From: Acetobacter senegalensis
GTDB taxonomy: Bacteria > Pseudomonadota > Alphaproteobacteria > Acetobacterales > Acetobacteraceae
Direction: 5' to 3'
DNA: 64,000 nucleotides
Assembly (NCBI RefSeq): GCF_001580995.1
Contig: NZ_LHZU01000138.1
Span: 1-64,000, forward strand
The notes under the pieces were generated by a model. It searched no databases. It saw only the letters and a program-made list of their open reading frames with translations, and was not told the DNA's origin. Each line of letters begins with the position of its first letter. Within the stretch, counting starts at the first letter, position 1. Below, in pieces: positions 17,232 through 64,000 of this stretch. Both the position numbers and the translations under genes were made by a program.

Positions 17232-17678
17232 TTCTTGTGTCCTATCGATTGAAGACGTGTTGGTCAGGTATTTTTACTCACATGCAAAAACAGAAGATCC
17301 GTTTCAGAGTATTTTTTGTATCTACACAATAATGGTAGTTGCATTTATTGTAGGATGTCTGTGTATCAAGCCTTCTGTATTTTCTGTGTTTTATTATTAT
17401 CAGTGTCTCGGTATGGAAGATTGGGCTGCATATTTAACTATACAATGAAGTTGATTGTTGGGGTTGCCCCATATTCATCATTATTATGAGATTTAATTTT
17501 GAGTCAATCAAAAAAATAACGAATGAAAACGATTATAAATTAGGAATATGTTGTTAAAGTACAACAAAATAAGTCATTATTTTATAGATATCTCATTATA
17601 CCGCTATTATAATTGACTCATAATTAATCGTAAATTTAAAAACGCACATAAATGATAGTGTTTTTTGGTTGGACGATA
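17232..17678. other. AT-rich divergent intergenic region
   Basis: About 450 bp separate the rhodanese gene (leftward) from the TonB receptor (rightward). The stretch 17260-17650 is strongly AT-rich with poly-A/T runs, suitable for divergent promoters. No clear -35/-10 pair, operator palindrome or coding frame was recognised. Confidence 0.5.
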
Positions 17679-48408: not shown

Positions 48409-48879
48409 AGGGTTTCATAGAAAATAGTCCGTGCAAGGCATTGTAAAAAGAAATTTGTGATATATCCAAAAACGATATATCATTTATACAATTCTAATGT
48501 CTTTCTTTATCTGTAACGGAATGGTGTTCATAAGGTAATGGCCTCGTCTCAGAAGATATGACGGTTTGGTTCACGTGTTTAATGTAGTCTGATAACTGGG
48601 TTGAATGCGTAAGCTTGTATTAGCAGTTGCCGAACGACGAACTGGTATTTCGCTCGCTTAGCTTTTAGGAAACGGGATTTTTTATATTCTGGTTTGATCG
48701 TAACCGGCTTCTTAAGCCCAAGCATTGATCAATTTGGCAAAAAGATAGTTTTTCTACCGAGGTAGATGGATTCAGTGACTCTTCGGCAGGATTATTCTCA
48801 ATGGTAGTGTGGCTATCTTCCACGAGGCTAATTGGAGGTTTTACGAAATTCCTAGGTTATAGAAAGCAAAGAACACTAT
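48409..48879. other. Intergenic, no gene recognised
   Basis: About 470 bp upstream of the SDR and downstream of the MFS transporter. It is AT-rich at both edges (48450-48500 and 48860-48880). No open frame with protein-like composition, terminator hairpin or IS end was recognised. A promoter for the SDR-isomerase pair should lie near 48360-48500. Confidence 0.5.
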
Positions 48880-50349
48880 TTATTTTTTGTGTATTTTATA
48901 GAAATTTCCATGCCTTAAAGACTCTTCGATATATTCCAATGTCGTGCCGGCTGTTTCAGGAACATATTTCCAGATGAATAGGAATGCCGCGACGTTAACA
49001 CCCCCGAATAGCCAGAAGGTTCCTGTCGTGCCTAATGCTTCAACCAGAGAAAGTGTAATCAGGGATACGATGGTATCGGAGAACCAGACTGTGGCACTTG
49101 CTAGCCCCATTGCTTTGCTGCGTATAATAAGAGGGAACACTTCAGACGCAACCAGCCACACCGCAACGGACAGTGAGCCAAAATTAAAGAAAATATATCC
49201 CAACAAAGAAATTATCATCAGAGCCAGACGTGCACCGGAGAGTGGTGCGGAACTGATGAAAATGGCACCCAGCACAAAGAGGGAGAGCGCAGCCAGCGGA
49301 AGCATGGCCAGCATCATGCGGCGTCTTCCCACTCTATCAATCAGGGCGATCCCCAAGGCTGTTGTGATAGTGGAGGCCACGCCAACAGAAACAGATGTCA
49401 GTAATGCCGCGGAATGTCCCAAGCCAGCTTGTGACAGAATAATAGGAGCATAATAGACAATCACGTTGGGGCCTGACAGTTGGGAAAAGGCGGCTATTCC
49501 TAAAGCGGCAATAAGTGCTGGTCTTACCCATTTCTGCTTCAGGATTTTCCAATCGCCTTCGTTGTGCTCACCTGTTCTGACAACAAGTGCTTCATCAAGC
49601 TCATTGCGTACCACGTCCTTATGGCCACGGAGCCGATAAAGAACGGAGACGGCATGTTGCTCCTGCGCGTTATGCAACAACCAGCGCGGGCTTTCGGGCA
49701 AGAACAGCATGCCAAAAGCAAGGAGCAATGCCGGCAGGGCTCCAAGCATGAACATGGCCCGCCATGATTCAGCACTGCCTGCAAGTTCGTAACCGACAAA
49801 AAACGCCAGAAGCAGCCCTAAGGAGAATACAAGCTGGAAGAGCGATACCAGACTGCCCCGACGAGACGCAGGGGCCAATTCCGCCACATAGACTGGCACG
49901 ATCTGCGTAGTAGCCCCAATAGCAATGCCCAGACCAAGCCGGGCGCAGATCAGCACTGCCACATTGGGGGCCAGTCCACATCCGATTGATGCCGCGATGA
50001 AGACCACCGCTGCAGCCATAATGGCAGGGCGCCTGCCCCAGCGGTCAGAAATCGGACTGCTGAACACTGCGCCGAAAATCGCACCGATGTTTAATGAAGC
50101 AGCAACCCATTCCTGCCCCATTGTGGAAAGAGAGAACGTCTGCGTCACAAAAATCAATGCGGACGCTATGATGCCGGTATCATAGCCAAAAAGAAGCCCA
50201 CCAACCGCAGCGACAGCAGCAGCGATGGAGACATACCGACGCGCAGATTTGCGTTGATCCTCTTCATGGGCCTGAGCATGAAAGGCAGATATGGCACGCT
50301 TATGCATTAAGGACGTGGATGTGTTGTGGGTGCCCGGCGCGGCAGTCAT
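48880..50349 (-). CDS. MFS sugar porter (SP family)
   Basis: A 489-residue transporter with 12 predicted helices. SP-family signatures are present: GGLLFGYDTGIIASALIFV in helix 1, SDRWGRRPAIMAAAVVFI in loop 2-3, PESPRWLLHN before the central loop, DRVGRRRMMLAMLPL in loop 8-9 and VPETAGTTLEYIEE at the C-terminal end. XylE, GalP and AraE are the best-known relatives; the substrate is likely a hexose, pentose or cyclitol. It is followed 470 bp later by the SDR and YihS-like isomerase on the same strand and preceded by the dehydrogenase and LacI genes. Confidence 0.87.
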   Translation of the reverse strand: MTAAPGTHNTSTSLMHKRAISAFHAQAHEEDQRKSARRYVSIAAAVAAVGGLLFGYDTGIIASALIFVTQTFSLSTMGQEWVAASLNIGAIFGAVFSSPISDRWGRRPAIMAAAVVFIAASIGCGLAPNVAVLICARLGLGIAIGATTQIVPVYVAELAPASRRGSLVSLFQLVFSLGLLLAFFVGYELAGSAESWRAMFMLGALPALLLAFGMLFLPESPRWLLHNAQEQHAVSVLYRLRGHKDVVRNELDEALVVRTGEHNEGDWKILKQKWVRPALIAALGIAAFSQLSGPNVIVYYAPIILSQAGLGHSAALLTSVSVGVASTITTALGIALIDRVGRRRMMLAMLPLAALSLFVLGAIFISSAPLSGARLALMIISLLGYIFFNFGSLSVAVWLVASEVFPLIIRSKAMGLASATVWFSDTIVSLITLSLVEALGTTGTFWLFGGVNVAAFLFIWKYVPETAGTTLEYIEESLRHGNFYKIHKK

Positions 50350-50392
50350 AACGGCGCCTCCATTTTCTGTGATCAGGTGCAGTGCCCGGACA

Positions 50393-51253
50393 TCATTCCG
50401 CGTCAGATGTGTTGAATATGTTGCTCAACGTACGCTGCATAACGGTCGCATCAAGCGTCTTGCCCAGCCAGAGTTCCACCCCGATCACGCCCTGATTGAC
50501 GAGCATTCCAAGTCCGTCAAGCGGCGTGCAGCCCCGCTTCTTTGCTTCACGTAGGAAGCGTGTCATCGGTGGGTTGGGGATAACATCCGCAACCACCTGG
50601 CCTTTTTTAAAAGTATCGACATCTACTGCCGCCATGGCGTCTGCGTTACCAAAGCCAACCGAGGTCGCATTGATCACGATATCCGTATCAGCCGGGATGC
50701 GCGCTTCGCCTTCCCATAGGTGTGCAGTCGCATTGCATTTGGTGTTATCACGCACGAGATCAGCAATGGTGTCAGCGTGCGCCTTTTTCATATTGACCAC
50801 GGTTATATGGGCTGCGCCTGCCAGACCAAGCTCAACGGCAATTGCCCGCGCGGCTCCTCCGGCACCAAGAAGAAAAACCTTCTTATCTGTAGGATCGATG
50901 ACGGTCCTGAGCGAGGCAAGAAAGCCCTTGCCATCGGTGTTGTCGCCTATCAGTTTGCCATTACGAATGCTGACGCAGTTGACGGCACCGATAATTCGGG
51001 CAGCTTCGGCCATGTCATCAAGATACTCGATAACAGCAACTTTGTGCGGCAGGGAGCAATTAAAGCCAGCCCATTCCATGGCCAGAGCCCCGCGTACTGC
51101 CTCGCCTAGGTGCGCAGGTTTCACGTCACAGTTGATATAACGCGCGTCCAGTCCTGCGTGCTGAAACCCGGCTTCTATCATCGCGACGGTAGGGTTGTCT
51201 GCGCATGGCGTCGAGAAAGAACCCGTGAGAATGCTACGGAAAGTGCGGTGCAT
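50393..51253 (-). CDS. Shikimate/quinate dehydrogenase-like oxidoreductase
   Basis: A 286-residue protein of the AroE fold. The substrate domain has NCSLPHKVAVIEYLDD (the NxTxPxK-type catalytic-lysine region), GAVNCVSIRNGKLIGDNTDG (Asn and Asp binding the substrate), the NAD(P) fold KKVFLLGAGGAARAIAVELG and the end GLGMLVNQGVIGVELW. The N-terminal SxS motif appears as GSFSTPCADN, unlike housekeeping AroE, so a paralogue acting on quinate or another cyclic polyol is more likely. ATG at 51253 starts MHRTFRS. It is between a sugar porter and a LacI regulator, so a catabolic role fits. Confidence 0.75.
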   Translation of the reverse strand: MHRTFRSILTGSFSTPCADNPTVAMIEAGFQHAGLDARYINCDVKPAHLGEAVRGALAMEWAGFNCSLPHKVAVIEYLDDMAEAARIIGAVNCVSIRNGKLIGDNTDGKGFLASLRTVIDPTDKKVFLLGAGGAARAIAVELGLAGAAHITVVNMKKAHADTIADLVRDNTKCNATAHLWEGEARIPADTDIVINATSVGFGNADAMAAVDVDTFKKGQVVADVIPNPPMTRFLREAKKRGCTPLDGLGMLVNQGVIGVELWLGKTLDATVMQRTLSNIFNTSDAE

Positions 51254-51344
51254 CGTGTTGCATTCCTTTTTAGTGGCTATGGAGCTTGTATGCATAGCTA
51301 TGCAATGAAGACCATTTTTGCCTGGGAGTGCAACCCCTAATCCC

Positions 51345-52355
51345 TTATTTGCCTGTGCGCGTGCTGCCGCGTTCGATCAACTGCGCGTTAATGGTGCGGG
51401 TTTGGGAATACGGATGATCGACCGTCTGAAGCGCCTCATTCAGCATATCCATAGCGACTGTCACCATCTGATCCGTCCGTTGGTCAAAAGAGGTCAGATC
51501 ATAGCCATGCCATGCTGCCTGGGGGATGTTGTCGTAACCCAAAACGATCACATCATCAGGGCAACGCAGATCTGCGCACTCACGCAGGGCATCCAGCACA
51601 CCACAGGCCATCATATCGTTACTGGAAAAAATACCATCGGGACGTAAGCCTCGCTGCAAGAGGCGGCGAATAGCCTTATAGCCGCTCTGATAGGTATCAT
51701 CGCCACGAAGCCGGACCAGTTTTCCGAAACAGTCAGATGTCTCTTTCAGGGTATCGCAAAATCCTTCTCCTCGTGCGCGGGAGGCCGCATTTTTTGCGGG
51801 GCCTGCCAGCCATACAGGATGTGTTACGCCATGTTTGATGAAAATTTGTGCTGCGATCTGGCCTGCCCCGTAATTGTTGGATACGACCGTGGATATCCAC
51901 GGCCCCACAAAAGATGAATTAAAACAGATCACGGGGGTATGAAGTTCGGACAGTGCCTGAACGACGGATTGCGAGCCCACGGCCAATGAGGTTACCACTG
52001 CATCAATTCTGTAGCTGGCTAACTGGTCAAGCGCTGTATCCAAAGTCAGCGCGTCGTCAACCTGAACCAGCAGAACCTGCAGTCCTGCCTGGCGAAGGGC
52101 TATTGCCAGCCGTTCGAGTGCGGAAGCATAAAACGGATTATCTAGCCCTCCGATAACCACACCAACCATATGAGATCGTCCGGAAAGCATGATGCTTGGT
52201 ATCCGGTTGGGGCGATATCCGAGCGTGGCAGCCGCAGCCAGTACCCTTTCTTTCGTCTCGGCGGAAATGCTCGCATTTGAAGAAAAGGCACGGGAGACAG
52301 CCGACTGGGACACACCGGCCAGCTTTGCAACATCTATCGACGTAACGGAGCGAAT
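51345..52355 (-). CDS. LacI/GalR-family regulator with non-standard start
   Basis: The conserved regulator: helix-turn-helix SIDVAKLAGVSQSAVSRAFS, hinge helix IPSIMLSGRSHMVGVVIGG, and effector domain through DVIVLGYDNIPQAAWHGYDL. The first half of the helix-turn-helix lies upstream of the first GTG (52313), so that codon cannot be the real start. No ATG, GTG or TTG occurs in frame between the helix and the upstream stop near 52425. The best candidate is ATT at 52355 or ATC at 52358, 6-9 bases after GGGAG. A start lost by mutation is the alternative. It probably controls the dehydrogenase, sugar porter and isomerase genes downstream on the same strand. Confidence 0.72.
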   Translation of the reverse strand: MRSVTSIDVAKLAGVSQSAVSRAFSSNASISAETKERVLAAAATLGYRPNRIPSIMLSGRSHMVGVVIGGLDNPFYASALERLAIALRQAGLQVLLVQVDDALTLDTALDQLASYRIDAVVTSLAVGSQSVVQALSELHTPVICFNSSFVGPWISTVVSNNYGAGQIAAQIFIKHGVTHPVWLAGPAKNAASRARGEGFCDTLKETSDCFGKLVRLRGDDTYQSGYKAIRRLLQRGLRPDGIFSSNDMMACGVLDALRECADLRCPDDVIVLGYDNIPQAAWHGYDLTSFDQRTDQMVTVAMDMLNEALQTVDHPYSQTRTINAQLIERGSTRTGK

Positions 52356-52430
52356 GATTCTGGTCTCCCTTGGTTCATGTGAAGTTGCTGTAGAGACTGA
52401 CCGAAGGCAGCTTATAGTTATCTACTACGG

Positions 52431-52773
52431 GTAAGTAATAGCTGCCAACCTCTACATTTTTCTAGCAGTATGCTTCGCGTAATGGTCAAGCACGGTCGTT
52501 AAACCGATCAGTTCCAGTGTGGCGAATGGAGTGCGCCAAACACGCATGATAACATATCTGTGCTTGATGGTGGTGCTTGTGCCCATTTGTGAGATGTGAA
52601 CGGAATGGCACTACCGAGTGCTGGCAGGCGATGTTTTTGTTGGGCGTGGTTCTGGCGCCGGAATATCGGAGGACATGGGGCGCGATGGGAAGAACTGAGG
52701 CTTGCTAGGAAATGTCCGGCCTTGATTGCCGCCTTGGGCATAGCTGCTCTCTCCCAGTCGTCAGCTCAGACGT
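52431..52773. other. Intergenic with a short SDR-like fragment
   Basis: Upstream of the LacI-type gene, 340 bp without a gene. At 52514-52540 a 27-bp stretch is identical to part of the SDR gene at 60322-60348, and the minus strand reads LAHSIRHTG there. Nothing else was recognised before the IS5 end at 52774. Confidence 0.5.
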
Positions 52774-53183: not shown

Positions 53184-54413
53184 TTAGTAATCGGTTAAGT
53201 CTGTTGTTGGATCTGCTAAAATATCTTGTGGTACTGCGCTGGCATTGCTGACTAATCGCCGTAATTTGCGTAACTCGCGCGTGGCGTTAACAGCCGTTAT
53301 CCCGCAGATAACTGAGTCATTAAGGTGGAAAATAACAAAAGCTCCATCGTTCGGGTTACCGCGTACAACTTCGCTGGTTCCAAGCGGGTTACCTACAACT
53401 TGAATGTTAAAGGTGTACTGGTCTGTCCAATATGACCCTGGTGATGAGTAATCATCAGGCACACCAAGAATCGCTTTGGCTACGTGCTCGCCATGGCTCG
53501 CTGCGTGCTGCCATGTTTCATCACGGCGTTGCGTGCCGTAATGTACGTTGTGATGAAAGGCGACCTCTCCCGCAGCATAAATGTCTTTAATGCTGGTTCT
53601 GCCTTGTGCATCGACAGAAATGCCACCAGCTGCAGCCTCAATCCCAGCAAGGCTGCCAAGTTTGTGCTCAGGGCACACACCAATGCCAACAACAATCAAA
53701 TCTGCAGCGAGGGTGCTCTTGTCAGAGAGGGTGAGAGAGTAGCCAGACTTGCCTTTTTCTACATCTATAATATGCGTTTGGCACCGAATATCTACACCGT
53801 GTTTCGTGTGTTCCGCCGCAAGAAAGCTGGCCAGTAACGGGCTGCCAGAGCGCGCCAGCGGCCTTTCCCCAGCCTCAATAACAGTAACATGAAAGCCTTG
53901 TGCCGTTGCCGCGGCAGCGACTTCAAGGCCAATAATGCCTGCACCCACAATAACCATGCTGGCCCCTTTGGGGAGGCTTTGCATGTCCTGTCTTAGTCTT
54001 TGCGCATCAAGGGACGTGCGCAAATAATGGATAAAGGGCGCACCGTAAGGAAAAAGAGGCAGTGTGCGGGGGCGTGAACCTGTGGCCAAAAGGAGCGTAC
54101 TGTAAGGCAGTTTTGTACCATCAGAGAGCGTTACAAGGTGGGCTGCAGCATCAATAGCGGTCGCTTCGGCACCTAGCCTCAGGTCTATCTGGTTTGTCTT
54201 GTAAAAGGCTTCGTCACGGAGCAAGAAAGTGGCGGGCGGTGCGCTTGTATGCAGAGCATCTTTAGAGAGCGGTGGCCTGTCATAAGGCATTGTATTTTCA
54301 CGGCTTAATAAGATAATCTGCCCGTCAAAACCATTTTCTCGCAGGGCTTGGGCAGCAGATACGCCAGCTATGCCAGCCCCTACAATGACAACCGTTTTTT
54401 CTTTCACTCTCAA
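53184..54413 (-). CDS. FAD-dependent ferredoxin reductase (BphA4/rhodocoxin-reductase type)
   Basis: A 409-residue reductase. FAD motif VVIVGAGIAGVSAAQALREN at 8-27, the family block YDRPPLSKDAL near 45, NAD motif MVIVGAGIIGLEVAAAATAQ near 153, and DIYAAGEVAFHHNVHYG near 285, with the C-terminal dimerisation domain including YWTDQYTFNIQVVGNP. Such reductases pass electrons from NADH to a [2Fe-2S] or Rieske ferredoxin serving an oxygenase. A Rieske-type ferredoxin gene begins at 63928 and a di-iron hydroxylase at 54896, both plausible partners. The DNA is clearly more AT-rich than the 4-42 kb region. Confidence 0.85.
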   Translation of the reverse strand: MRVKEKTVVIVGAGIAGVSAAQALRENGFDGQIILLSRENTMPYDRPPLSKDALHTSAPPATFLLRDEAFYKTNQIDLRLGAEATAIDAAAHLVTLSDGTKLPYSTLLLATGSRPRTLPLFPYGAPFIHYLRTSLDAQRLRQDMQSLPKGASMVIVGAGIIGLEVAAAATAQGFHVTVIEAGERPLARSGSPLLASFLAAEHTKHGVDIRCQTHIIDVEKGKSGYSLTLSDKSTLAADLIVVGIGVCPEHKLGSLAGIEAAAGGISVDAQGRTSIKDIYAAGEVAFHHNVHYGTQRRDETWQHAASHGEHVAKAILGVPDDYSSPGSYWTDQYTFNIQVVGNPLGTSEVVRGNPNDGAFVIFHLNDSVICGITAVNATRELRKLRRLVSNASAVPQDILADPTTDLTDY

Positions 54414-54895
54414 CTCTCACTTACTTGTTAATGCGCATACAAGCAAAAAATAATACTTTACCCCTATGTCAGATAAATTTTTCCATCACAAGAGAGGGAA
54501 TATATTAAAAATTACGTTGTAATAAGAAAAAATCATGTTTGTTATGCGACATGAATAACTTGGGAGTTGTTCCTGATTGACGAGTGGAATACACTATTTT
54601 AATCAGCGGGCAGGACGCACAGGAACTTCTTACGCAGCATCACTCGGCTCTCATATTAAAAATTATCAATATTGTGCTCTGTAAAGCATAAATATCTCTT
54701 CATCTTTCGTGCGCTAGAATTTTAAAAAGACTAAAAATTTCTAGTGCATATCACCATAAAAAGCGCTTAAAAGAGAATTGTTGCGTTTCAAGAACGGAAA
54801 AGCCAGCCAGAAACCCTTCGGGCTGCGTCGAATGACGTATGAAACTCTGATGGAGAATGAGGTAAATTCAAACCAATGAATTTTTGGAGGTGGAG
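54414..54895. other. AT-rich divergent intergenic region
   Basis: 480 bp between the leftward reductase and the rightward hydroxylase. AT-rich throughout, with no frame that reads like a protein. Divergent promoters are expected; none could be placed with confidence. A short frame across 54790-54990 on the minus strand is a shadow of the hydroxylase start. Confidence 0.5.
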
Positions 54896-55891
54896 ATGAG
54901 CGGAACTCGCGTTGGAAACAGAGTGATCGGTTCGCAAGCTCCCGTCACGATTGGCTGGGATAATATACCAAAAGTGGAGGGGGGTAAGGTTAAGCAATTT
55001 GTCTTCACCTATTTTCAGCCGGCTATGCTCCTCGCCTTGATTGTTTTTTGGTATTACGCTCCCAATTCAATAGCGACGGCCACAACAGCCATCTGGATAG
55101 GCGTAGGCTTTCGGGTTCTCTTGATGGCGCTTGAGTGGGTAAATCCACGTTATGAAAGTTGGCGTTTGACCTGGAAAGAGCTGGTCACGGACCTTTTTTA
55201 TGTCGGCGTCGGTTATACTTTTTTACGGATTGTAAATAGTTATATTGGTAGTGATGCGGTGATTGATTTCATCCAGAGCTATTTTCATTTTGATAAAGTT
55301 ATGTGGTTTCTTGTTCTTCCTCTTTTGGTTCAGGCGTTTATTATTTCATTTATTTTTGATTTTGGTCAGTACTGGATGCATCGCGGTATGCATACATGGT
55401 ACCCGCTGTGGTTACCGCACTCGGTTCATCATTATGTTACCCAATTAAATATTAATAAAGGTGCAGTGGGCAATCCAACTGAGTTGTTTCTTATCGGACT
55501 TGGTTTGGGTGGCTTTTTTGATTTTTTGCCACGAGCTGTTTTGTTGGCTGGAGCCATGTCTATGGCAATTGGCGAATATCAGCATATTAACGTAAGGTTT
55601 AACACGCCGCGTTGGTGGAGATATTTGTTTAATACTACGGAGCATCATAGTTTGCATCATGCACAGGATTATGAAGCAACATGTAGCAACTATGCGAGCG
55701 TTTATATTTTCATAGATAGAATGTTCGGTACTTGCGTTGACGGTGAGGCTGAACTGCTTGGAACAGAAGGCGGGCGTCGTCTTACAATCAGTGAACAAAT
55801 GACGTACCCGTTCACGAATGGTTGGCGCTACTACAAGAGGAAAGTCAAAAAAATGACCAAGCAATGGTTTGGAACAAAAGCGCGGCAATAA
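54896..55891 (+). CDS. Sterol-desaturase/fatty-acid-hydroxylase-family di-iron enzyme
   Basis: A 331-residue integral membrane protein. Hydrophobic stretches at about 45-60, 65-90 and 140-160 precede the three histidine clusters of the family: MHRGMH near 166-171, HSVHHY near 181-186 and HHSLHH near 252-257, which ligate two irons. Family members hydroxylate or desaturate sterols, carotenoids or fatty acids with O2 and electrons from a redox chain. ATG at 54896 follows GGAGGTGGAG. Two plus-strand genes follow, with a nearby ferredoxin reductase as a likely electron source. Substrate unknown. Confidence 0.82.
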   Translation: MSGTRVGNRVIGSQAPVTIGWDNIPKVEGGKVKQFVFTYFQPAMLLALIVFWYYAPNSIATATTAIWIGVGFRVLLMALEWVNPRYESWRLTWKELVTDLFYVGVGYTFLRIVNSYIGSDAVIDFIQSYFHFDKVMWFLVLPLLVQAFIISFIFDFGQYWMHRGMHTWYPLWLPHSVHHYVTQLNINKGAVGNPTELFLIGLGLGGFFDFLPRAVLLAGAMSMAIGEYQHINVRFNTPRWWRYLFNTTEHHSLHHAQDYEATCSNYASVYIFIDRMFGTCVDGEAELLGTEGGRRLTISEQMTYPFTNGWRYYKRKVKKMTKQWFGTKARQ

Positions 55892-55964
55892 GCCCTAAAT
55901 CATTGTTTCATTACTATTGAATGGGTTTGACCACTTAAAATGGTTAAAGAGAAGGGGCACAAAA

Positions 55965-56579
55965 GTGAACTGGCATCTTATTGATTGGATATGGCATGTA
56001 AGAGGATGTCTTTCAATTCCCGCGCAACAAACCAGCAGCGAAGTCTTTTGTAAAATAGATCCTTTGTTTCAGGAATTTGGAACAACGCATGAATTGAAAA
56101 ATGAGAGTCTGGTTTTTTCTAAAAAAAATCAACCTTCTCAAGATAAGATGGCTGTATTTGATGATGGTGTTTTGAGCATAGAGAGCAAAAAAGAAGGTTC
56201 TGTTTTACAGTATGACTTAAGAAGTAAAACACTCCTTTTTTGTTTTCTGGCACCGTTTTTCTTTCTGGCAATGGCCGAACTCACAATTGTGGTTAAACAC
56301 CTCCAAAAGCCATCAACTGAGGTGTCACAGTCTTTAGCCGAGAAGGAAAAAGAGGAAGAGGCCAGATATCTTATTCAAAGCCCTATAGACAAAGCTTTGG
56401 GGGTGCCCGCGCCAGAAAAGAAAACAGATAAAGATGACGAGAAACAGGGCAAGAAAAAACTCTCTCCCGTAGCGGCTTACGTTTTTGCCGGTATCTTTTC
56501 GATCTTATACGTTATCGGCAGGATTAGCGAAGCTTTGTCCGTAAAGTCTCTTTTTAGAAAATATTTGTCTGAGTATTGA
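55965..56579 (+). CDS. Uncharacterised membrane protein, NWHLIDWIWHVRG family
   Basis: About 205 residues from GTG at 55965, which has AAGGGG upstream; the frame extends 16 codons further but without a conserved start. It opens NWHLIDWIWHVRGCLSIP and has SKKNQPSQDKMAVFDDGVL, then a membrane segment (about 93-115, LLFCFLAPFFFLAMAELTIV). A Lys/Glu-rich linker follows, and a second membrane segment LSPVAAYVFAGIFSILYVIG lies near 175. I recall similar proteins annotated as hypothetical in alpha-proteobacteria, with this opening and the FCFLAP segment conserved. It sits 73 bp after the di-iron hydroxylase on the same strand and may be part of the same unit. Confidence 0.65.
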   Translation: MNWHLIDWIWHVRGCLSIPAQQTSSEVFCKIDPLFQEFGTTHELKNESLVFSKKNQPSQDKMAVFDDGVLSIESKKEGSVLQYDLRSKTLLFCFLAPFFFLAMAELTIVVKHLQKPSTEVSQSLAEKEKEEEARYLIQSPIDKALGVPAPEKKTDKDDEKQGKKKLSPVAAYVFAGIFSILYVIGRISEALSVKSLFRKYLSEY

Positions 56580-56608
56580 TTTTCTAAGACATTCGAAAAG
56601 GTTGCGGT

Positions 56609-57556
56609 GTGCGTATTAAAAAAATACTAAAACATGCTTTAATGTTGGCGGTGTTTTCACCGGTCAGTTGTCTCCCTCATGTATTTGCGGCAACAGTGCC
56701 AACACAGCAGGTTATGCATGTACCGGGTTCACCTGATTTTCTTGCCGTTGATGGTGCCTCAGTTTGGGTTATGAACAGAGGGCGTGTAGAGCACTGGTCT
56801 GTGTCGGGAAAACTGGCTGAAGTTAAGTTGGGCCATCCTTGTGGTGCCATGTCAGTAGCGTTTGGCTCCCTTTGGGTTGCTGATTGCAAAGCGAATACCC
56901 TCAACCGGATAGACCTCAAGACTGCACAAAAAGACGTTGTTATTCAAACAGGTATAGCAAACCCCAGAGGCGAGCTGAATGTTGTCAGTGGGGAGGGTTC
57001 TATCTGGGTAGCCAGTGATGGCAGTGGGAAAGTTGCCCGTGTTGACCCACTTACAAACAAAGTCATTGCATCTATCCCGGTCGATTCTGAAACCTATTAT
57101 CTTGCATTCGGTTATGGTGCCCTATGGGGTGTAAGCGCTACCCATAACACGCTTCAAAAGATCGATCCGCAAACTAACACCGTCGTCAAAAAAACCGCCC
57201 TTGGGCGTGCTCCTGGCTTTCTTGCTGCGGGGGAGGGGGCTGTTTGGGTACAAGAGCAGGGTGACGGAACAGTTGCTCGCGTCTCCCCAGAAACAGGAGA
57301 GGTTTCTGGTCGGGTAAAAGTCGATAACTCATTGATGTATGGGGATATTGATGCCGGGGGTGGTAAGGTCTGGCTGCGTACCACAGACCATCAGACATTT
57401 GTCGTCATTGACCCCCAAACTCTGGCCATTCGTGCACGAATTGGTGCACAAACGGGCAGTGGCGCGTTGCGGTACACCCCAGAAGGTATCTGGACAACAT
57501 CTCACGATATTCATGTTCTGGCATGGTGGGCAAACCCGGAAAATATCGGGAATTAA
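56609..57556 (+). CDS. Exported beta-propeller protein, Vgb/YVTN-like
   Basis: A 315-residue protein from GTG at 56609 with a signal peptide (about 6-28, ending FAATV). It has repeated blades with a W-V-A core: SVWVMNRGRVEHWSV, SLWVADCKANTLNRIDLKT, SIWVASDGSGKVARVDPLT, ALWGVSATHNTLQKIDPQT, AVWVQEQGDGTVARVSPET and KVWLRTTDHQTFVVIDPQT. The spacing of about 44 residues gives six or seven blades, as in virginiamycin-B-lyase-like and YVTN propellers. The lyase catalytic His/Glu set is not evident, so a binding or scaffolding role is more likely. It is the third gene of a plus-strand run with the hydroxylase. Confidence 0.7.
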   Translation: MRIKKILKHALMLAVFSPVSCLPHVFAATVPTQQVMHVPGSPDFLAVDGASVWVMNRGRVEHWSVSGKLAEVKLGHPCGAMSVAFGSLWVADCKANTLNRIDLKTAQKDVVIQTGIANPRGELNVVSGEGSIWVASDGSGKVARVDPLTNKVIASIPVDSETYYLAFGYGALWGVSATHNTLQKIDPQTNTVVKKTALGRAPGFLAAGEGAVWVQEQGDGTVARVSPETGEVSGRVKVDNSLMYGDIDAGGGKVWLRTTDHQTFVVIDPQTLAIRARIGAQTGSGALRYTPEGIWTTSHDIHVLAWWANPENIGN

Positions 57557-57705
57557 AAAGCTGAAGAAAGTTACCTTATAGAGTGGCAGATGCTTCATCC
57601 TTGTCGGGTAGTATCTGCATTTTATAAAAGTAGTGACAAGGTAAGCCCTGCCTGTCTAACTCAGCCAATATAGAGGCGAGCACAAAAAAGCACCCTCTTA
57701 TAAAG

Positions 57706-57731
57706 CTCACCCTCTTATTGGGTGAGTTTTT
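57706..57731 (+). terminator. Rho-independent terminator after propeller gene
   Basis: CTCACCC at 57706-57712, a 7-base loop, GGGTGAG at 57720-57726 and then TTTTT. It lies between the plus-strand propeller gene (ends 57556) and the convergent oxidoreductase (ends 57765), so it closes the plus-strand unit. Confidence 0.8.
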
Positions 57732-57764
57732 CAAAAGCGAGAAACAATCCCATTACAAATTGGT

Positions 57765-59969
57765 CTAAATTGAACCGAACTCGCCATTAAAGAAATGTGG
57801 AGAGAACGGATAGCGCCTACATCTTTTGCCTGTAGCATTAAAAAGTGCATTGCCAAGTGATGGAAACGCAGCAGTCGTACCGACCTCTCCAATACCGCCG
57901 GGGCTGTCAGTACTTTTGATGATATGCACATCAATGGGCGGTACGTCATTAATGCGCATAAGCGGGTAGTTATGAAAATTACTTTGCTCTATGCGCCCAT
58001 TTTTTATGGTTATTTCTCCATAAAGCGCGGCGCTAAATCCAAAAAGAAGTCCACCTTCCATTTGTGCTATAAGTGCATCCGTATTAACGGCTATGCCGCA
58101 ATCCACAACGGCGGTCACCTTCTTTATAGCAATAGATTTTTTATCCGTTACCACTGCTTCAGTGACCACAGCGCAATGGGAGCCAAAAGCATTATGTAAG
58201 GCCAGGCCACGGCCGGTGCCTGTAGGGAGCGGTTTGCTCCATTGGCTTTCTTCCGCAGCACGTTTTAGAACTGCTACAGAACGAGGGTTTTTGCCCAAAA
58301 GGCGTAACCTGTATTCAAGCGGGTCGGTATGTGTTGCGGCGGCTAATTCATCTATAAAACTTTCTACTACGTAAACATTATGCGCTGGGCCAACACCCCG
58401 CCACCAGCCAACTGGCACAGGTGTATCAGCGCGCGTCCACGTTACAAACATCTGGGGCAAGTCATAAGGTGTATCTACTGCGCCGGCGACAGCATCAGTA
58501 TCGAGCTTGCCTACGGGCAACCCGCCTGGGGCAAAGCGGTCAACGACAGAAGGCCCACTTACATGGTGCTGCCAAGAAAGCGGCTGCCCATTTTGACCCA
58601 GTGTTGCACTGATACGGTCATAGTACGCGGGCCGAAAAAGATCCTGACGGATATCTTCTTCCCGGCTCCAGATAAATTTTACAGGGTGAGAGACCTGACA
58701 GGCGAAGTGTGTTGCCTGTTCCAAAAAGTCTGTAGCCAGCCTACGCCCAAAACTACCGCCTATCATGTGGTTATGAATTGCAACTTTTTCTGGCGGCAAA
58801 CCTGTTATCTTTGCAACGGCAGCCCGTGCACGGGTTGGAACCTGCGTACCCATCCAGACATCGCAACGCTCTGCACGCACATGTAGTGTTACATTGGCGG
58901 GTTCCATAGGTGCATGAGAGAGAAATGGGAGCTCATAAGTCGCTTCCAGTTTTTTGCCAGACTCTGCAGAAGTATTCTTGGGTTTATCATTGCGCGCAAT
59001 AATTTCTGGCACAGAAAGGGAAGCATCGCGGATTTTTCGTCTGATGTCCTCAGAGCTAAGAGAAGAGTTTTTTCCTTCTACCCACTTAATTTTGAGAGCT
59101 GCTAAGCCTTTTTTAGCGGTCCAGTAATTCCTTGCTATAACAGCAACGGCTGTGCTGGTTTTTAGAACATTCAGAACACCAGGGATAGTCCTGCACAGTG
59201 TGTCATCAAGGGTGTCGAGAGTAGCGCCAATAACAGGTGCTCCCATAACAGCGCCAATCGCCATTTCTGGCACACGCACATCAATACCAAAAACAGCAGT
59301 ACCGTTCGTTTTGGCAGGAATATCAACCCGCGGGAAAGACTTGCCTATCAATTTCCAGTCGCTGGGTGATTTTAGAGGCACATTTTGGGGTATGTTCTGC
59401 CGGGCGGCATCAACCGCAAAGTCACCATACTGTGCACAATGCTGGCCTGTATGGTCTTTTATGTAACCATTTTCGGCTGCTAACAAATGCTGCGGTATAT
59501 TCCAGCGTGCAGCAGCAGCAGTAAGAAGCATAAGCCGAACCGTTGCGCCAGCTTGCCGTAAGGGTACCCACCCATTACGGACAGAGCGGGAACCGCCTGT
59601 TGAAAGGGATTTTAGAAACTTTGGAGCAACATCACTCACGTCCTGCGGCAATGCAGGCAGGACAGTAATGTCTTTAGGGTCTACTTCCAGCTCTTCTGCA
59701 ATAATAATGGCTTCAGTTGTGTAAATACCCTGTCCCATTTCAATGTTTGGAACAATGAGAGATATTTTATTATCGCTCCCAATACGAACAACACCCCCAA
59801 GAGTAATATCTGATGGGGAGTGAACATTCTGGCTTGTTTGCGCCAAGGCCACTTTACTACGTGCAGCAGGTAGCCCTGCAAAAGCAAGCGCTATGCCCCC
59901 TCCCAAGAAGTGGCGCCGTAAAAGAGGGTTCAAAGCGTTGTCAGTTTTGCTAACAAAAAGAGAAGGCAT
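57765..59969 (-). CDS. Molybdopterin oxidoreductase large subunit (IorB/aldehyde dehydrogenase type)
   Basis: A 734-residue protein of the isoquinoline-1-oxidoreductase beta/aldehyde-oxidase family. It has a Tat-like leader with RRHFLGGGIALAFAGLP near 20-36, then a first domain with IEMGQGIYTTEAIIIAEELE, then a second with GGSFGRRLATDFLEQA (a cofactor contact) and PVGWWRGVGPAHNVYVVESF. SPGGIGEVGTTAAFPSLGNA near the end has the catalytic Glu (GEVG). IorB normally pairs with a small [2Fe-2S] subunit and often a cytochrome c; neither is adjacent. In acetic acid bacteria such enzymes oxidise aldehydes or hydroxylate heterocycles in the periplasm. A start at 59984 is also possible. Confidence 0.8.
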   Translation of the reverse strand: MPSLFVSKTDNALNPLLRRHFLGGGIALAFAGLPAARSKVALAQTSQNVHSPSDITLGGVVRIGSDNKISLIVPNIEMGQGIYTTEAIIIAEELEVDPKDITVLPALPQDVSDVAPKFLKSLSTGGSRSVRNGWVPLRQAGATVRLMLLTAAAARWNIPQHLLAAENGYIKDHTGQHCAQYGDFAVDAARQNIPQNVPLKSPSDWKLIGKSFPRVDIPAKTNGTAVFGIDVRVPEMAIGAVMGAPVIGATLDTLDDTLCRTIPGVLNVLKTSTAVAVIARNYWTAKKGLAALKIKWVEGKNSSLSSEDIRRKIRDASLSVPEIIARNDKPKNTSAESGKKLEATYELPFLSHAPMEPANVTLHVRAERCDVWMGTQVPTRARAAVAKITGLPPEKVAIHNHMIGGSFGRRLATDFLEQATHFACQVSHPVKFIWSREEDIRQDLFRPAYYDRISATLGQNGQPLSWQHHVSGPSVVDRFAPGGLPVGKLDTDAVAGAVDTPYDLPQMFVTWTRADTPVPVGWWRGVGPAHNVYVVESFIDELAAATHTDPLEYRLRLLGKNPRSVAVLKRAAEESQWSKPLPTGTGRGLALHNAFGSHCAVVTEAVVTDKKSIAIKKVTAVVDCGIAVNTDALIAQMEGGLLFGFSAALYGEITIKNGRIEQSNFHNYPLMRINDVPPIDVHIIKSTDSPGGIGEVGTTAAFPSLGNALFNATGKRCRRYPFSPHFFNGEFGSI

Positions 59970-60125
59970 TTGTGCGCCTGTCACCTAATAGTCTCAAGGG
60001 AGAGGAGAGAAAGTAACGCGAGTAAAAAGAGTTCCACACAAAGCGTCTGTCAGGGTTATTGGACTGGCCAAGGCAAAGTTCTTGTGAACTCCGACTTGCT
60101 TTTCAAGTTTATTCTAAAGCCGAGC

Positions 60126-60824
60126 TTAGTAGCTTTCCTCTGCCCTGCAATTTACGGGAATTTCCGAAATACTAACCTCATTGGGTGACGTGACAAGGAA
60201 ATGCGCAACGCGGGCAATTTCTTCTGGTGGGGTCATGTTCAGTTCCGGCATCATGCCTTCAACCATGTCGGTCTTTACAAAGCCAGGGCAGATCACCGTG
60301 GCTCTAATGCCATATTCAAACCCAGTGTGGCGAATGGAGTGCGCCAAAGCAAGCGTTGCAAATTTGGACACGGCATAAGGGCCAGAATCTGAATCATAAA
60401 CACGTTTGCTCGACAGGGAGCCAATCATAACAACTCGGCCGCTGCCACAGGCAACAAGTTGTTCCCATGCAGCTTTTACGAGGCGGCGGGGGCTTTTAAT
60501 ATGGACGTCCAGCAGGTCATCCATCTCATCTTCGGAGATGTCTATAATGTTTTTCCATATGCCAATGCCAGCATTGGCAACAACTGCATTAATATGCCCA
60601 AAATGGCTTATTGTGCTTTCAACCCAACTGGCTTCTGTTGTTGTGTCTAAGGCATCGTAGTGGCCAATCAAAACGCGCTCTTTGTCTGTTGCCCATGCTG
60701 GTATCAGGGATTTGCGCATACCAAGGCTAACACACCAGCCTTCATCGTAAAACTTTTTGGCAATCGCAGCCCCCATGCCTCTTGCTGCGCCTGAAACCAT
60801 AATGACTTTTTGTGTTGTTCCCAT
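60126..60824 (-). CDS. Short-chain dehydrogenase/reductase
   Basis: A 232-residue SDR: VIMVSGAARGMGAAIAKKFY (cofactor motif near 6-25), AVVANAGIGIW in place of NNAG, IGSLSSKRV with the catalytic Ser, YAVSKFATLALAHSI with Tyr and Lys, and VICPGFVKTDMVEGM. Similar to members annotated as 3-oxoacyl or alcohol dehydrogenases. It is located between the molybdopterin enzyme and the TonB receptor and oriented like both. A 27-bp piece of it is repeated at 52514-52540. Confidence 0.82.
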   Translation of the reverse strand: MGTTQKVIMVSGAARGMGAAIAKKFYDEGWCVSLGMRKSLIPAWATDKERVLIGHYDALDTTTEASWVESTISHFGHINAVVANAGIGIWKNIIDISEDEMDDLLDVHIKSPRRLVKAAWEQLVACGSGRVVMIGSLSSKRVYDSDSGPYAVSKFATLALAHSIRHTGFEYGIRATVICPGFVKTDMVEGMMPELNMTPPEEIARVAHFLVTSPNEVSISEIPVNCRAEESY

Positions 60825-60898
60825 CAGAAATTTCCCTGCTTATGGTAATTTTTTTGAGTTGATATGAGCATCGAAACAAGGTGCACACCAAAATAATA

Positions 60899-60944
60899 GA
60901 AAGACCCCCGTATGGAAAATATGTTTCACATAGAGGAGTCTTTC
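60899..60944 (-). terminator. Hairpin at 3' end of TonB receptor
   Basis: GAAAGACCCC at 60899-60908 and GGAGTCTTTC at 60935-60944 pair with one mismatch, 28 bp downstream of the receptor's stop on the minus strand. T-rich sequence (tctttctattattttgg on that strand) follows, fitting a terminator of the receptor gene. Confidence 0.55.
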
Positions 60945-60971
60945 TTTGTGGTATCAGTCAGGCACTAATTT

Positions 60972-63458
60972 TTAGAAATGTGCGCTTGCTTCCAGCCCAA
61001 AGGTGCGTGGTGTTAAAACACTATAGGCATAATAACGTTCAGCAATGCCATCACGGGAACGAATGGAGCTCATATCATTACTGACTGCAGTTACAGCATA
61101 CTGATCAGTCAGGTTATTGACAAAAAGATCAACACTCCATTTCCGTGTGTTGTATGTAATAGACGCTCGGTGCGTTACATAACTGGGCATGCGGTAGCCG
61201 TAGCCTTCTAGCCCCACACGAGAGAAGATGCTGCCTTGATAAGTGGTCGCCCAATTAAACTGGATATTTCGGTCCTCATCTAGGGGGAAGGTATAGTTTG
61301 CAATAATACTGCCCGAATTCTTGGTCGAGCCGGGTAAACGGTCCCCTGGTTTTCCTGCATAGGAGCCTAGTACGTTGGTGACTAATCCTGGAGAGTATTT
61401 TGTCAAGTGTGCATCAACATAAGAATAGGTCGCTGAAATCGTAAAGTTTGGCAGAACCTTCACATTCACAGACGCATCGAAGCCCCTTGAGACAGCAGCC
61501 GCGCCGTTTTTCGTAATTCCAACATTCCCATATTGAGTCTGGCCGGGAACCTGTATGTTCGTCCAGTCAATATTGTAGCCAGCCAATGTAAATATTAACC
61601 GACGGTGGAAAAAATTCCCACGGATACCAAGTTCAGCATTGCGTGTTTTATCTGGTTTATAACTGACTTCATTGGGGAGGGCACAAGCATGCTGGACGCT
61701 TGTGTCCAATGGCATGGAGCAGGGGGCCACTTTGTTTACCCCACCCACACGATAACCAGTGCTGTAAGTAAAGTAGGTCATGATATTCGGGTTAATACGG
61801 TAGGAAATGTTCGCTTTCCACATGGTGCCATTGGCACCGGTAGAACCCTGTTGTGAGCTATAGTTTACATTCGGGTAGGTTTGGAAGAGCGGCAATGCAG
61901 TGCCACCATCTACCGAAGAGTCATAATCAAAGTACCGGAAGCCGCCTGTAATCTGAAGATTTTTCAAGATATGGTAGGTAAGCTCGCCATACACTGCGCG
62001 CTCCTGCGTTTTGGTGTGCACGCGTGAGGCATACTCAAGTTCATCAGGCCGATCGATACCCGCCCAAGATGTATACCCAGGGACATACTCATGGCGGTTG
62101 GTATCTGTTTTCTGGTTGTTGTAAAAACCACCAATAACCCAGCTTATCGGCCCCTTATGGGTAGAAACAAGGCGCAGCTCTTCGTTGAACTGTGTGTATT
62201 TTCTGTGACTCACGGCATAGGAAGAGAAGTTTGGGAAGGCTTGGTACCCATAATCAAGATCAAGCAGAAGATCCGTATTATCTTCAACTGAGTCTATGGT
62301 CTGGTGTGTATAAGCCGTTGTGTTGACCAACTGAGCAAAGTTGAAAATGTTGAAATAGAATTCCCCGCTATAAAGGTCTGATTTGCGGTTTACTGGCTCC
62401 TGATAGCGCCACGGTGCATCATAATGGCCAGTCCCGAGCACGCCCGCAGCATTGGCCTGCTGGCCGCCTGTACGGGTTTCCTGGTGCATGTAGGTCAGGT
62501 AACCCTTGATGTTAGGGTTAACCTGCACTAAGAGCTGGTTACGGGTTGTAAAGGTGTGGTCGTAGTTCAGATCTTTACGGCGGTAAAAATTCTGGGCGCG
62601 CTGTTCAGCTGTACCCAAAGAGTTAGCACCCGGCTGCGGGTTAGAAACTCCCGGTGTTTTCAGCAGGTAATTGTAGTCCATAAAGCCGGGGTCATTATAG
62701 TACCCAACAACCGTTCTGAACGCCAGATGGTCTTTGATGAGTGGAATATTAAACGTGCCCGTTGTTTCACCACCGGGGGAGCCACTGTGCGATTCCCCAA
62801 AGGTCTTGCCGGTTACATCTGCAGACCAGTGGTTCAGAACCGGGCGGTGGGGCATATAACGAATAGCGCCAGCCAAGGTGCCTAAACCGTATAGGGTGCC
62901 CTGTGGCCCCTGTAGCACTTCAAGGCGATCGATATCGACCATCTTGAAGTCTGTATAAAGCGGTACTTCACCCAGATAGACACCAACCGAGTTGTTGGTG
63001 AAGTTCCCGGTTGTTGACGTTGAGCCAGAAGAAAGGCCGCGCATAATAATGTTACCGGTATTGCCCGGGCCGTTATCGGTAATGGTCAAACCCGGCACAA
63101 AAGAGCTCAACTGGCGAATGTCAGTGATCCGCTCATTCTTCATCAGCTTCTGATCTATGACAGAAATATTGATGGGCGAGTCTTCCAGCTTGGTTGAACG
63201 CCGCGTTGCGGTAACCATAATCTGCTCTTCTTGGGCAGCATGTACTTTCTGCTGAACAGGCTTAACCGCGGCGGCTTTCGTTGTTGCAGGTTGCTGCTTT
63301 GCTGGTGCGCCAGAGCGTGTCTTCTTTTCTGCCACTGGGCCATTCTTCTGGTCAGACGAGGCTGCATGGGCAGAGGCAGCGAGAGCAAAGGGAGCGCCAC
63401 TGATCAACATGGTGGCGCAAAACAGATATGCCCTTCTTTTGGCCGGACAATCCTGCAT
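60972..63458 (-). CDS. TonB-dependent receptor, sphingomonad-type
   Basis: An 828-residue receptor with a signal peptide (about 8-33, ending SAHAAS), an Ala/Lys/Gln linker, a TonB-box-like EEQIMVTATRR, the plug at about 92-210 (INISVIDQKLMKNERITDIR, IIMRGLSSGSTSTTG, VDIDRLEVLQGPQGTLYG) and a barrel ending in RTFGLEASAHF. The LEVLQGPQGTLYG and SVGVYLGEVPLYTD features are those of the large receptor class common in sphingomonads and acetic acid bacteria, which import varied organic substrates. It is in the AT-richer segment with the hydroxylase, reductase and Rieske genes, so a common substrate is plausible. Confidence 0.85.
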   Translation of the reverse strand: MQDCPAKRRAYLFCATMLISGAPFALAASAHAASSDQKNGPVAEKKTRSGAPAKQQPATTKAAAVKPVQQKVHAAQEEQIMVTATRRSTKLEDSPINISVIDQKLMKNERITDIRQLSSFVPGLTITDNGPGNTGNIIMRGLSSGSTSTTGNFTNNSVGVYLGEVPLYTDFKMVDIDRLEVLQGPQGTLYGLGTLAGAIRYMPHRPVLNHWSADVTGKTFGESHSGSPGGETTGTFNIPLIKDHLAFRTVVGYYNDPGFMDYNYLLKTPGVSNPQPGANSLGTAEQRAQNFYRRKDLNYDHTFTTRNQLLVQVNPNIKGYLTYMHQETRTGGQQANAAGVLGTGHYDAPWRYQEPVNRKSDLYSGEFYFNIFNFAQLVNTTAYTHQTIDSVEDNTDLLLDLDYGYQAFPNFSSYAVSHRKYTQFNEELRLVSTHKGPISWVIGGFYNNQKTDTNRHEYVPGYTSWAGIDRPDELEYASRVHTKTQERAVYGELTYHILKNLQITGGFRYFDYDSSVDGGTALPLFQTYPNVNYSSQQGSTGANGTMWKANISYRINPNIMTYFTYSTGYRVGGVNKVAPCSMPLDTSVQHACALPNEVSYKPDKTRNAELGIRGNFFHRRLIFTLAGYNIDWTNIQVPGQTQYGNVGITKNGAAAVSRGFDASVNVKVLPNFTISATYSYVDAHLTKYSPGLVTNVLGSYAGKPGDRLPGSTKNSGSIIANYTFPLDEDRNIQFNWATTYQGSIFSRVGLEGYGYRMPSYVTHRASITYNTRKWSVDLFVNNLTDQYAVTAVSNDMSSIRSRDGIAERYYAYSVLTPRTFGLEASAHF

Positions 63459-63927
63459 ACATTACTCCTGTTTTCACTTTGGTGAGTGTCTTAGTCGCCA
63501 GTTTGAGCAACCAAGAAGAGAGTTGCTAAACAAATTCATATGGGAGCGTAGATAAATTATTCCGTAACCGATATATGTTGTTTGACGTAATTAAAGGTGT
63601 TTGTCATCAAAAAAGCATCGGTTTTCAAACATGAAGTGCATTAAATGATCGTTATCATTGAGGTGTGGTGAGGGTCTCAGATGCAAAACAGAGATTTTCC
63701 TATTTAGATAATTTTGAAAAATAATGATAAAACAAGAGATATTTCGGGTTATGTGGGGTGATATAACGGCACGTACCAAGCGTGCTGTAGGCATAATCTG
63801 GTTGGGTAAAATATTTTTTGTGGCATAGGGAGGGCATGGTGATTGTAAAACCAGTCAACCTATGTCAGCTTCTATTCTCAGATCAAAACGGTCTATAAAT
63901 TTACAAAAATATATGCTGGAGAAAGCA
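63459..63927. promoter_or_regulatory. Divergent control region with possible Fur-like site
   Basis: 470 bp between the leftward TonB receptor and the rightward ferredoxin gene. An inverted repeat AATGAT-cgtt-ATCATT lies at 63644-63659, reminiscent of Fur boxes but with a 4-bp instead of 1-bp centre, and ataatgataa at 63721-63730 resembles another half site. This hints at iron control, but is weak. Otherwise AT-rich with no coding frame. Confidence 0.3.
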
Positions 63928-64000
63928 ATGGTCGAAAAAGTTTTTTTGTGCCGTAACAGCGAGCTTAAAGAGAGCGCTATGCGCCAGGTGGCCGTTGCGG
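63928..64000 (+). CDS. Rieske-type ferredoxin, N-terminus only
   Basis: ATG at 63928 with GGAG seven bases upstream starts MVEKVFLCRNSELKESAMRQ, and the frame runs off the window. The opening (short, V-x-L-C, then a SELKES-type helix) resembles the first strand of small Rieske ferredoxins, whose Cys-X-His metal motifs would lie beyond the end. It is divergent from the TonB receptor. If correct, it is the expected electron carrier for the ferredoxin reductase at 53184. Only 24 residues are visible, so the call is tentative. Confidence 0.45.
   Translation, partial: MVEKVFLCRNSELKESAMRQVAVA

Follow-up and report, generated by a model that had tools for sequence, protein, structure and literature searches.

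The window analyzed here, 64,000 nucleotides of Acetobacter senegalensis (genome G000), corresponds to positions 1-64,000 of contig C62 (NZ_LHZU01000138.1; 93,445 bp), and contig positions beyond its end continue the same numbering. Its end (53184-64000) contains a gene for a membrane hydroxylase of the FA_hydroxylase superfamily, here termed HYD, in a cluster that extends past position 64000 to about 77.9 kb of the contig. The genes at the window end are best explained as the left half of an island for guanidine assimilation that was gained by horizontal transfer and has an oxygenase module at its front, and to this explanation as a whole a probability of about 0.5 is given. HYD is linked to guanidine genes in Acetobacter and in Sphingomonadaceae, and the odds are roughly even that the HYD module releases guanidine from a larger natural compound and thereby feeds guanidine breakdown.

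Guanidine carboxylase operon and extent of the island

Past the window, the stretch 62001-82000 of the contig (locus L005) was examined. In the initial annotation a terminal Rieske oxygenase or P450 had been suspected here, and none was found among 12 frames between 63.9 and 80.6 kb that were compared with Pfam. Judged by sequence, the genes located beyond 64 kb encode all steps of the guanidine carboxylase pathway and are accompanied by a Guanidine-I riboswitch. The carboxylase carries both diagnostic aspartates, D716 and D963, which correspond to K. lactis positions 1330 and 1584 as counted by eye on the alignment and are described as the criterion separating guanidine from urea carboxylases (PMC11410670). 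Both residues are kept in 4/4 island-type, 22/22 HYD+ sphingomonad and 7/7 control carboxylases (HYD-free loci, see below), and two of nine other alphaproteobacterial carboxylases have N at the first diagnostic position. The features of the island are the following (contig positions and strand):

53184-54413, minus: ferredoxin reductase (FdR) of the FAD/NAD type with a Reductase_C domain (Pfam Pyr_redox_2 224.6 bits, Reductase_C 70.2 bits); left end of the island
54884-55891, plus: HYD, membrane hydroxylase of the FA_hydroxylase superfamily (PF04116 76.5 bits, cut-off 31)
55917-56579, plus: TWO, membrane protein of two helices and a small alpha/beta domain, without a family
56609-57556, plus: PROP, beta-propeller protein (DUF6923, Vgb_lyase and YVTN repeat matches)
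57765-59984, minus: molybdopterin-binding hydroxylase large subunit (Pfam MoCoBD_1/2)
60126-60824, minus: short-chain dehydrogenase (SDR; Pfam)
60972-63458, minus: TonB-dependent receptor (Pfam)
63913-64000, plus: Rieske ferredoxin (PF00355 68 bits), its frame cut by the window end and ending at contig position 64248
64516-64616, plus: Guanidine-I riboswitch (RF00442 95.7 bits, gathering score 63)
64822-65553, plus: carboxyguanidine deiminase CgdA (TIGR03425 306.1 or TIGR03424 327.8 bits, the two scores of the CgdA/CgdB pair, above cut-off)
65490-66200, plus: carboxyguanidine deiminase CgdB (the other member of this pair, likewise above cut-off)
66261-69893, plus: guanidine carboxylase (TIGR02712 1825 bits, above cut-off)
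69898-71712, plus: allophanate hydrolase (TIGR02713 759.3 bits, above cut-off)
71857-73575, plus: hybrid histidine kinase (Pfam)
73562-74488, plus: response regulator (Pfam)
74664-76253, plus: TPR-sulfotransferase (Pfam)
76398-77912, plus: APC permease (Pfam; 578.8 bits against the urea-carboxylase-system permease family TIGR03428, cut-off 740.45); right end of the island

The genes recognized in the initial annotation were all recovered as open frames at the same places and with the same families (open frames and Pfam). This includes the gene at 63928, whose reading as a ferredoxin was confirmed: the frame starts with the ATG at 63928 or an alternative ATG at 63913, and the Rieske ligand motifs CxH and CxxH are present as CTH and CPLH. 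The lower G + C content described from about 53 kb on could also be verified, with 0.468 for 53184-64000 versus 0.567 in the 4-42 kb stretch and 0.524 between 42 and 53 kb; the values of 85 intervals of 10.8 kb to the left of 53184 range from 0.518 to 0.605. The whole island has a G + C content of 0.481.

The extent of the island was determined by synteny. With an A. orientalis-type genome (G172) the common block spans 53251-77912, with no common flank in the compared stretches, and with an A. malorum-type genome (G165) 53096-77933 is common, in addition to a separate common left flank at 48736-52462. From these block boundaries the island comprises about 24.8 kb (53.1-77.9 kb). HYD is 98% identical to the A. 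malorum and 95% identical to the A. orientalis protein, and HYD and the ferredoxin reductase (E<=1e-60) are present in the same three of 49 Acetobacter genomes. The island has its own guanidine operon and not the usual Acetobacter one, since CgdA of the three island-bearing genomes scores 521-564 bits, whereas the remaining 21 CgdA+ Acetobacter genomes (24 in total) reach 132 bits at most. The view was upheld that the cluster is oxidative and acquired, pairs a reductase with a ferredoxin, contains a membrane hydroxylase and a TonB receptor and is linked to sphingomonads. Two further Acetobacter genomes have the cluster conserved, and sphingomonads share part of it.

In a blastn search against contig 48-93.4 kb, the left end of the island returned itself and one 27-base match, and the right end only itself. 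No tRNA was found in contig 62-82 kb. To the right of the island, a sigma factor and a FecR-like frame (DUF4880 just below the cut-off) are located at 78900-80599 of the contig, followed by a large frame at 80805-83663 that by eye resembles a TonB receptor.

Linkage of the HYD module to guanidine genes in Sphingomonadaceae

In total, 397 Sphingomonadaceae genomes were searched for HYD (E<=1e-25) and CgdA (E<=1e-20, a cut-off set after the table had been seen). Two relatives of HYD were distinguished, HYD1 with 63-79% identity to the window protein and its paralogue HYD2 with 37-44%. HYD1 was found in 50 genomes, HYD2 in 44 and either of them in 52 genomes from 22 genera. The CgdA pair is present in 48/52 HYD+ versus 7/345 HYD-negative genomes, and 48 of the 55 CgdA+ genomes also carry HYD. 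The underlying 2x2 Fisher comparison ignores relatedness, as the 52 genomes stand for 22 genera, and at 1e-10 CgdA would be counted in 109/397 genomes, of which the 54 weaker ones were dropped by judgement as other DUF1989 proteins. HYD1 is located within 25 kb of CgdA in 37/50 genomes, at a distance of 5.9-15.9 kb, and HYD2 in 38/44; in 2/50 genomes HYD1 occurs without any CgdA. Elsewhere a close HYD is rare. It was detected in 2/150 Acetobacteraceae (G000 and G037), where the next best matches are generic relatives at E values of at least 5e-14, in 2/289 Alphaproteobacteria and in 3/319 genomes of the phylum, G000 being counted in each set.

The gene content of 19 HYD+ sphingomonad loci, chosen for the proximity of HYD and CgdA (40 kb each, two of them 29.7 and 38.5 kb), was compared with that of seven HYD-free guanidine loci as controls, for which the stretches are shorter (18-20 kb). 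The genes for the carboxylase, Cgd and allophanate hydrolase are present in all 19 HYD+ loci and, together with an ABC binding protein, in 7/7 controls. The HYD+ loci additionally contain HYD1 (19/19), TWO (19/19), PROP (18/19), a TonB receptor (17/19), a TPR-sulfotransferase (16/19), HYD2 (14/19), a metallo-beta-lactamase-fold protein (14/19, named from its sequence without a family search), a histidine kinase (12/19) and a response regulator (10/19), and each of these nine parts is missing from the controls (0/7).

TWO is located directly 3′ of HYD1 on the same strand in all 29 HYD1 loci examined. It has no Pfam or NCBIfam family, and with its structure model (pLDDT 71.5) no match in the PDB was obtained by Foldseek at E<=0.001; the best-ranked matches (kinase-associated domains, BamC, polyketide cyclases) were weak and were not used. 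PROP is apparently exported, judging by eye from an N-terminal hydrophobic stretch. In a genome-wide search it was found in 8/9 HYD+ genomes, the miss being the 71% complete G796, and in 0/23 HYD-negative genomes (0/7 CgdA+ and 0/16 others). Propellers of PAL-type lyases have three metal-binding histidines. As just one histidine is conserved in 25/25 PROP sequences, a three-histidine metal site is lacking and the assignment of PROP as a PAL-type zinc lyase was rejected. On a Sphingobium plasmid (L049), a 2OG-Fe(II) oxygenase with DIOX_N and 2OG-FeII_Oxy domains is encoded at 16631-17629, and a related frame is located close to HYD1-TWO in up to three more loci (G839, G751, PP1Y).

The carboxylase tree, which was obtained by a quick search with SH-aLRT support only, places the island sequences (three Acetobacter and G037, a genome of another Acetobacteraceae genus) in a clade of their own, separate from the sphingomonad and the ordinary Acetobacter carboxylases, and the HYD+ label on the sphingomonad carboxylases requires three changes in this tree. 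In the HYD tree, the island sequences fall within the HYD1 clade, with a short branch of 0.12; sphingomonad HYD1 alone forms one side of a branch in 0/200 bootstrap trees, and many forks are open. Read together, the two trees indicate that HYD is combined with at least two distant carboxylase lineages, which come with differing importers and regulators. The importer is an APC permease in the Acetobacter island, in which no ABC binding protein of the sphingomonad-locus kind was seen, and of the ABC type in the sphingomonad loci.

The regulators are a riboswitch on the one hand and a ribbon-helix-helix protein on the other. In G037, a Guanidine-I riboswitch (L056 8851-8955, plus strand) lies directly 5′ of carboxylase-HYD-TWO, the carboxylase and HYD genes being separated by roughly 160-200 bases, and a second, divergent one (8619-8721, minus strand) faces permease-CgdA-CgdB-allophanate hydrolase. 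In nine sphingomonad stretches, seven of them holding CgdA, no Guanidine-I riboswitch was detected at the gathering score. A ribbon-helix-helix regulator with a NikR C-terminal domain is encoded on the Sphingobium plasmid (L049 29976-30452) and has relatives in 17/19 HYD+ sphingomonad loci, where it may be a protein sensor replacing the riboswitch.

Among the remaining genes of the window, no 2Fe-2S small subunit or cytochrome was seen adjoining the molybdopterin subunit at 57765-59984; a paralogue on contig C104 of the same genome has both a 2Fe-2S subunit and a cytochrome c. The gene is internally deleted in G165 (L057/L058; compared with 58315-59894 of the window), so the enzyme may be dispensable, and none of the 19 HYD+ sphingomonad loci was found to contain the large subunit. 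A second paralogue with 69% identity (G000:C24:3193-5159) adjoins a TonB receptor and a subtilase-family protein.

Assignment of HYD and alternative explanations

HYD is the likely terminal oxygenase of the cluster, judging from its family, residues and linkage. It matches PF04116 only in Pfam. The superfamily is characterized by eight conserved histidines, and nine are invariant in 47/47 aligned HYD sequences, with a tenth in 44/47. No solved structure matches the HYD profile up to E=1.

Several observations weigh against a guanidine-releasing role. The structure model of HYD is unusable (pLDDT 34.7), and its substrate and reaction are inferred. HYD itself is not located behind the riboswitch in Acetobacter. 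HYD1 is distant from CgdA in 11/50 genomes (on the same contig in two, on another contig in nine), four HYD+ sphingomonads have no CgdA (G584 and G692, both with HYD2 only, G770 and the incomplete G796), and seven CgdA+ Sphingomonadaceae genomes have no HYD. In none of the 19 sphingomonad loci were relatives of FdR or of the Rieske ferredoxin detected in the vicinity of HYD. Furthermore, the role of the near-constant TPR-sulfotransferase is left unexplained by the proposal.

The last point also bears on the alternative that retains most weight, although it is rather improbable: the HYD module could process another amphiphilic molecule by hydroxylation and subsequent sulfation, or serve uptake or sensing, with guanidine as a mere shared signal or end product arising elsewhere. 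This would account for the near-constancy of both the TPR-sulfotransferase and the TonB receptor, and at three HYD loci with no neighboring guanidine genes (G584, G692, G770) PROP is retained beside HYD. The absence of the module from 7/7 HYD-free guanidine loci and the renewed joining of HYD to different carboxylase lineages are less well explained by a shared signal.

Somewhat less probable still is an OlsE-like lipid hydroxylase that alters membrane lipids against guanidine or amphiphilic stress and would be linked to guanidine genes for this reason. The nearest named NCBIfam family of HYD is indeed OlsE (NF052566; 64.3 bits over residues 40-311), which is described as hydroxylating the ornithine part of ornithine lipids (PMC3972451), and an enzyme acting on lipid speaks against guanidine release; an OlsB-type acyltransferase domain (PF13444) is present in 4/4 Acetobacteraceae genomes. 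The score is far below the equivalog cut-off of 475 bits, however, and among 19 HYD+ sphingomonads PF13444 gave one strong match, three at or barely over the cut-off and none in 15, so that most of them are without the usual ornithine-lipid precursor enzyme. On these two grounds an assignment of HYD as an ornithine-lipid hydroxylase was rejected. The near-constant TonB receptor moreover favors a substrate from outside.

The sterol-like, terpenoid or fatty substrate of the initial annotation, with guanidine genes adjacent by chance, draws on the FA_hydroxylase family name and on the molybdopterin enzyme, SDR and receptor in the cluster, and is very improbable given the guanidine assimilation genes downstream and beside the hydroxylase in other genera, the unequal distribution of the CgdA pair between HYD+ and HYD-negative Sphingomonadaceae and the syntenic 24.8 kb, a single block in different surroundings in G172.

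Proposed guanidine release and its significance

Under guanidine release by the HYD module, a guanidine-bearing compound would enter through the TonB receptor, which suggests a substrate larger or scarcer than guanidine itself; prenyl-, alkyl- or agmatine-type guanidines are guesses. HYD, together with its constant partner TWO, would hydroxylate the carbon adjoining the guanidine nitrogen of an N-substituted guanidine, and the resulting hemiaminal would collapse to free guanidine and an aldehyde, perhaps aided by PROP or another protein. In Acetobacter, co-occurrence points to an electron path from NAD(P)H via the ferredoxin reductase and the Rieske ferredoxin to HYD, and the aldehyde might conceivably be handled by the SDR and/or the molybdopterin enzyme. 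Free guanidine would then trigger the Guanidine-I riboswitch and enter the known pathway, for which all genes are present: after carboxylation, CgdA/B would deiminate the product and allophanate hydrolase would break it down to ammonia and CO2, so that guanidine would serve as a nitrogen source. In its full form, the proposal is an undescribed guanidine route in which a natural guanidine compound taken up through the TonB receptor would be cleaved oxidatively by HYD-TWO acting as a membrane monooxygenase of the di-iron type (Rieske-fed in Acetobacter), with PROP as hemiaminal lyase or substrate-binding partner. This form is tentative and somewhat less probable than the explanation of the island as a whole.

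Guanidine-releasing oxygenases of another class are already known. MgdH/MgdL are described to demethylate methylguanidine and are encoded in the guanidine carboxylase operon of Vreelandella boliviensis (PMC12508155). Both systems have extra oxygenase genes within a riboswitch-regulated guanidine carboxylase operon, and in both a hydroxylation beside the guanidine nitrogen, which is presumed for HYD, would be followed by guanidine release. Unlike MgdH, a 2-oxoglutarate/Fe(II) dioxygenase, HYD is a membrane protein of the FA_hydroxylase superfamily, and it comes with TWO, the propeller and the TonB receptor, in Acetobacter also with the reductase/Rieske ferredoxin pair. An assignment of HYD as an MgdH-type dioxygenase was rejected, as it matches no Pfam family other than PF04116. 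Plant homoarginine-6-hydroxylases (2-ODD-C23) are described as releasing free guanidine by hydroxylation of the adjoining carbon (PMC11018352); unlike HYD, these are cytosolic, eukaryotic 2-oxoglutarate enzymes.

Within the FA_hydroxylase superfamily, alkylglycerol monooxygenase (AGMO) is described to hydroxylate the alpha position beside a heteroatom, with collapse to an aldehyde (PMC3617469). The step proposed for HYD would fit the superfamily, because AGMO cleaves by the same kind of step, although AGMO acts in ether cleavage with tetrahydrobiopterin and has no guanidine link. OlsE resembles HYD as its nearest named family by profile and in that it hydroxylates an amino-acid head group, and differs by the low profile score and by the gene company of HYD, which is guanidine catabolism. 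As in other guanidine carboxylase pathway loci, the carboxylase, CgdA/B, allophanate hydrolase and riboswitch are all present, here beyond 64 kb; the island differs by the added oxygenase module and, from the sphingomonad loci, also by its APC permease. In a search of openly licensed papers, none was recognized that links the family of HYD with guanidine genes, which does not imply absence from print, and none was found for 'sterol desaturase' with guanidine and riboswitch or with urea carboxylase.

If the proposal is true, HYD-TWO cleavage would be what the extended guanidine carboxylase loci of Sphingomonadaceae ordinarily serve for, and the FA_hydroxylase ('sterol desaturase') superfamily would gain a role in nitrogen catabolism rather than a lipid-related one. 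It would also point to an unrecognized environmental pool of guanidine compounds, the natural supply of guanidine being described as an open question (PMC12186494). The conserved oxygenase-receptor module, found in 48/55 CgdA+ Sphingomonadaceae and as a block in three Acetobacter, offers a handle on the natural guanidine source, and identifying the compound on which receptor and hydroxylase act would reveal one such source.

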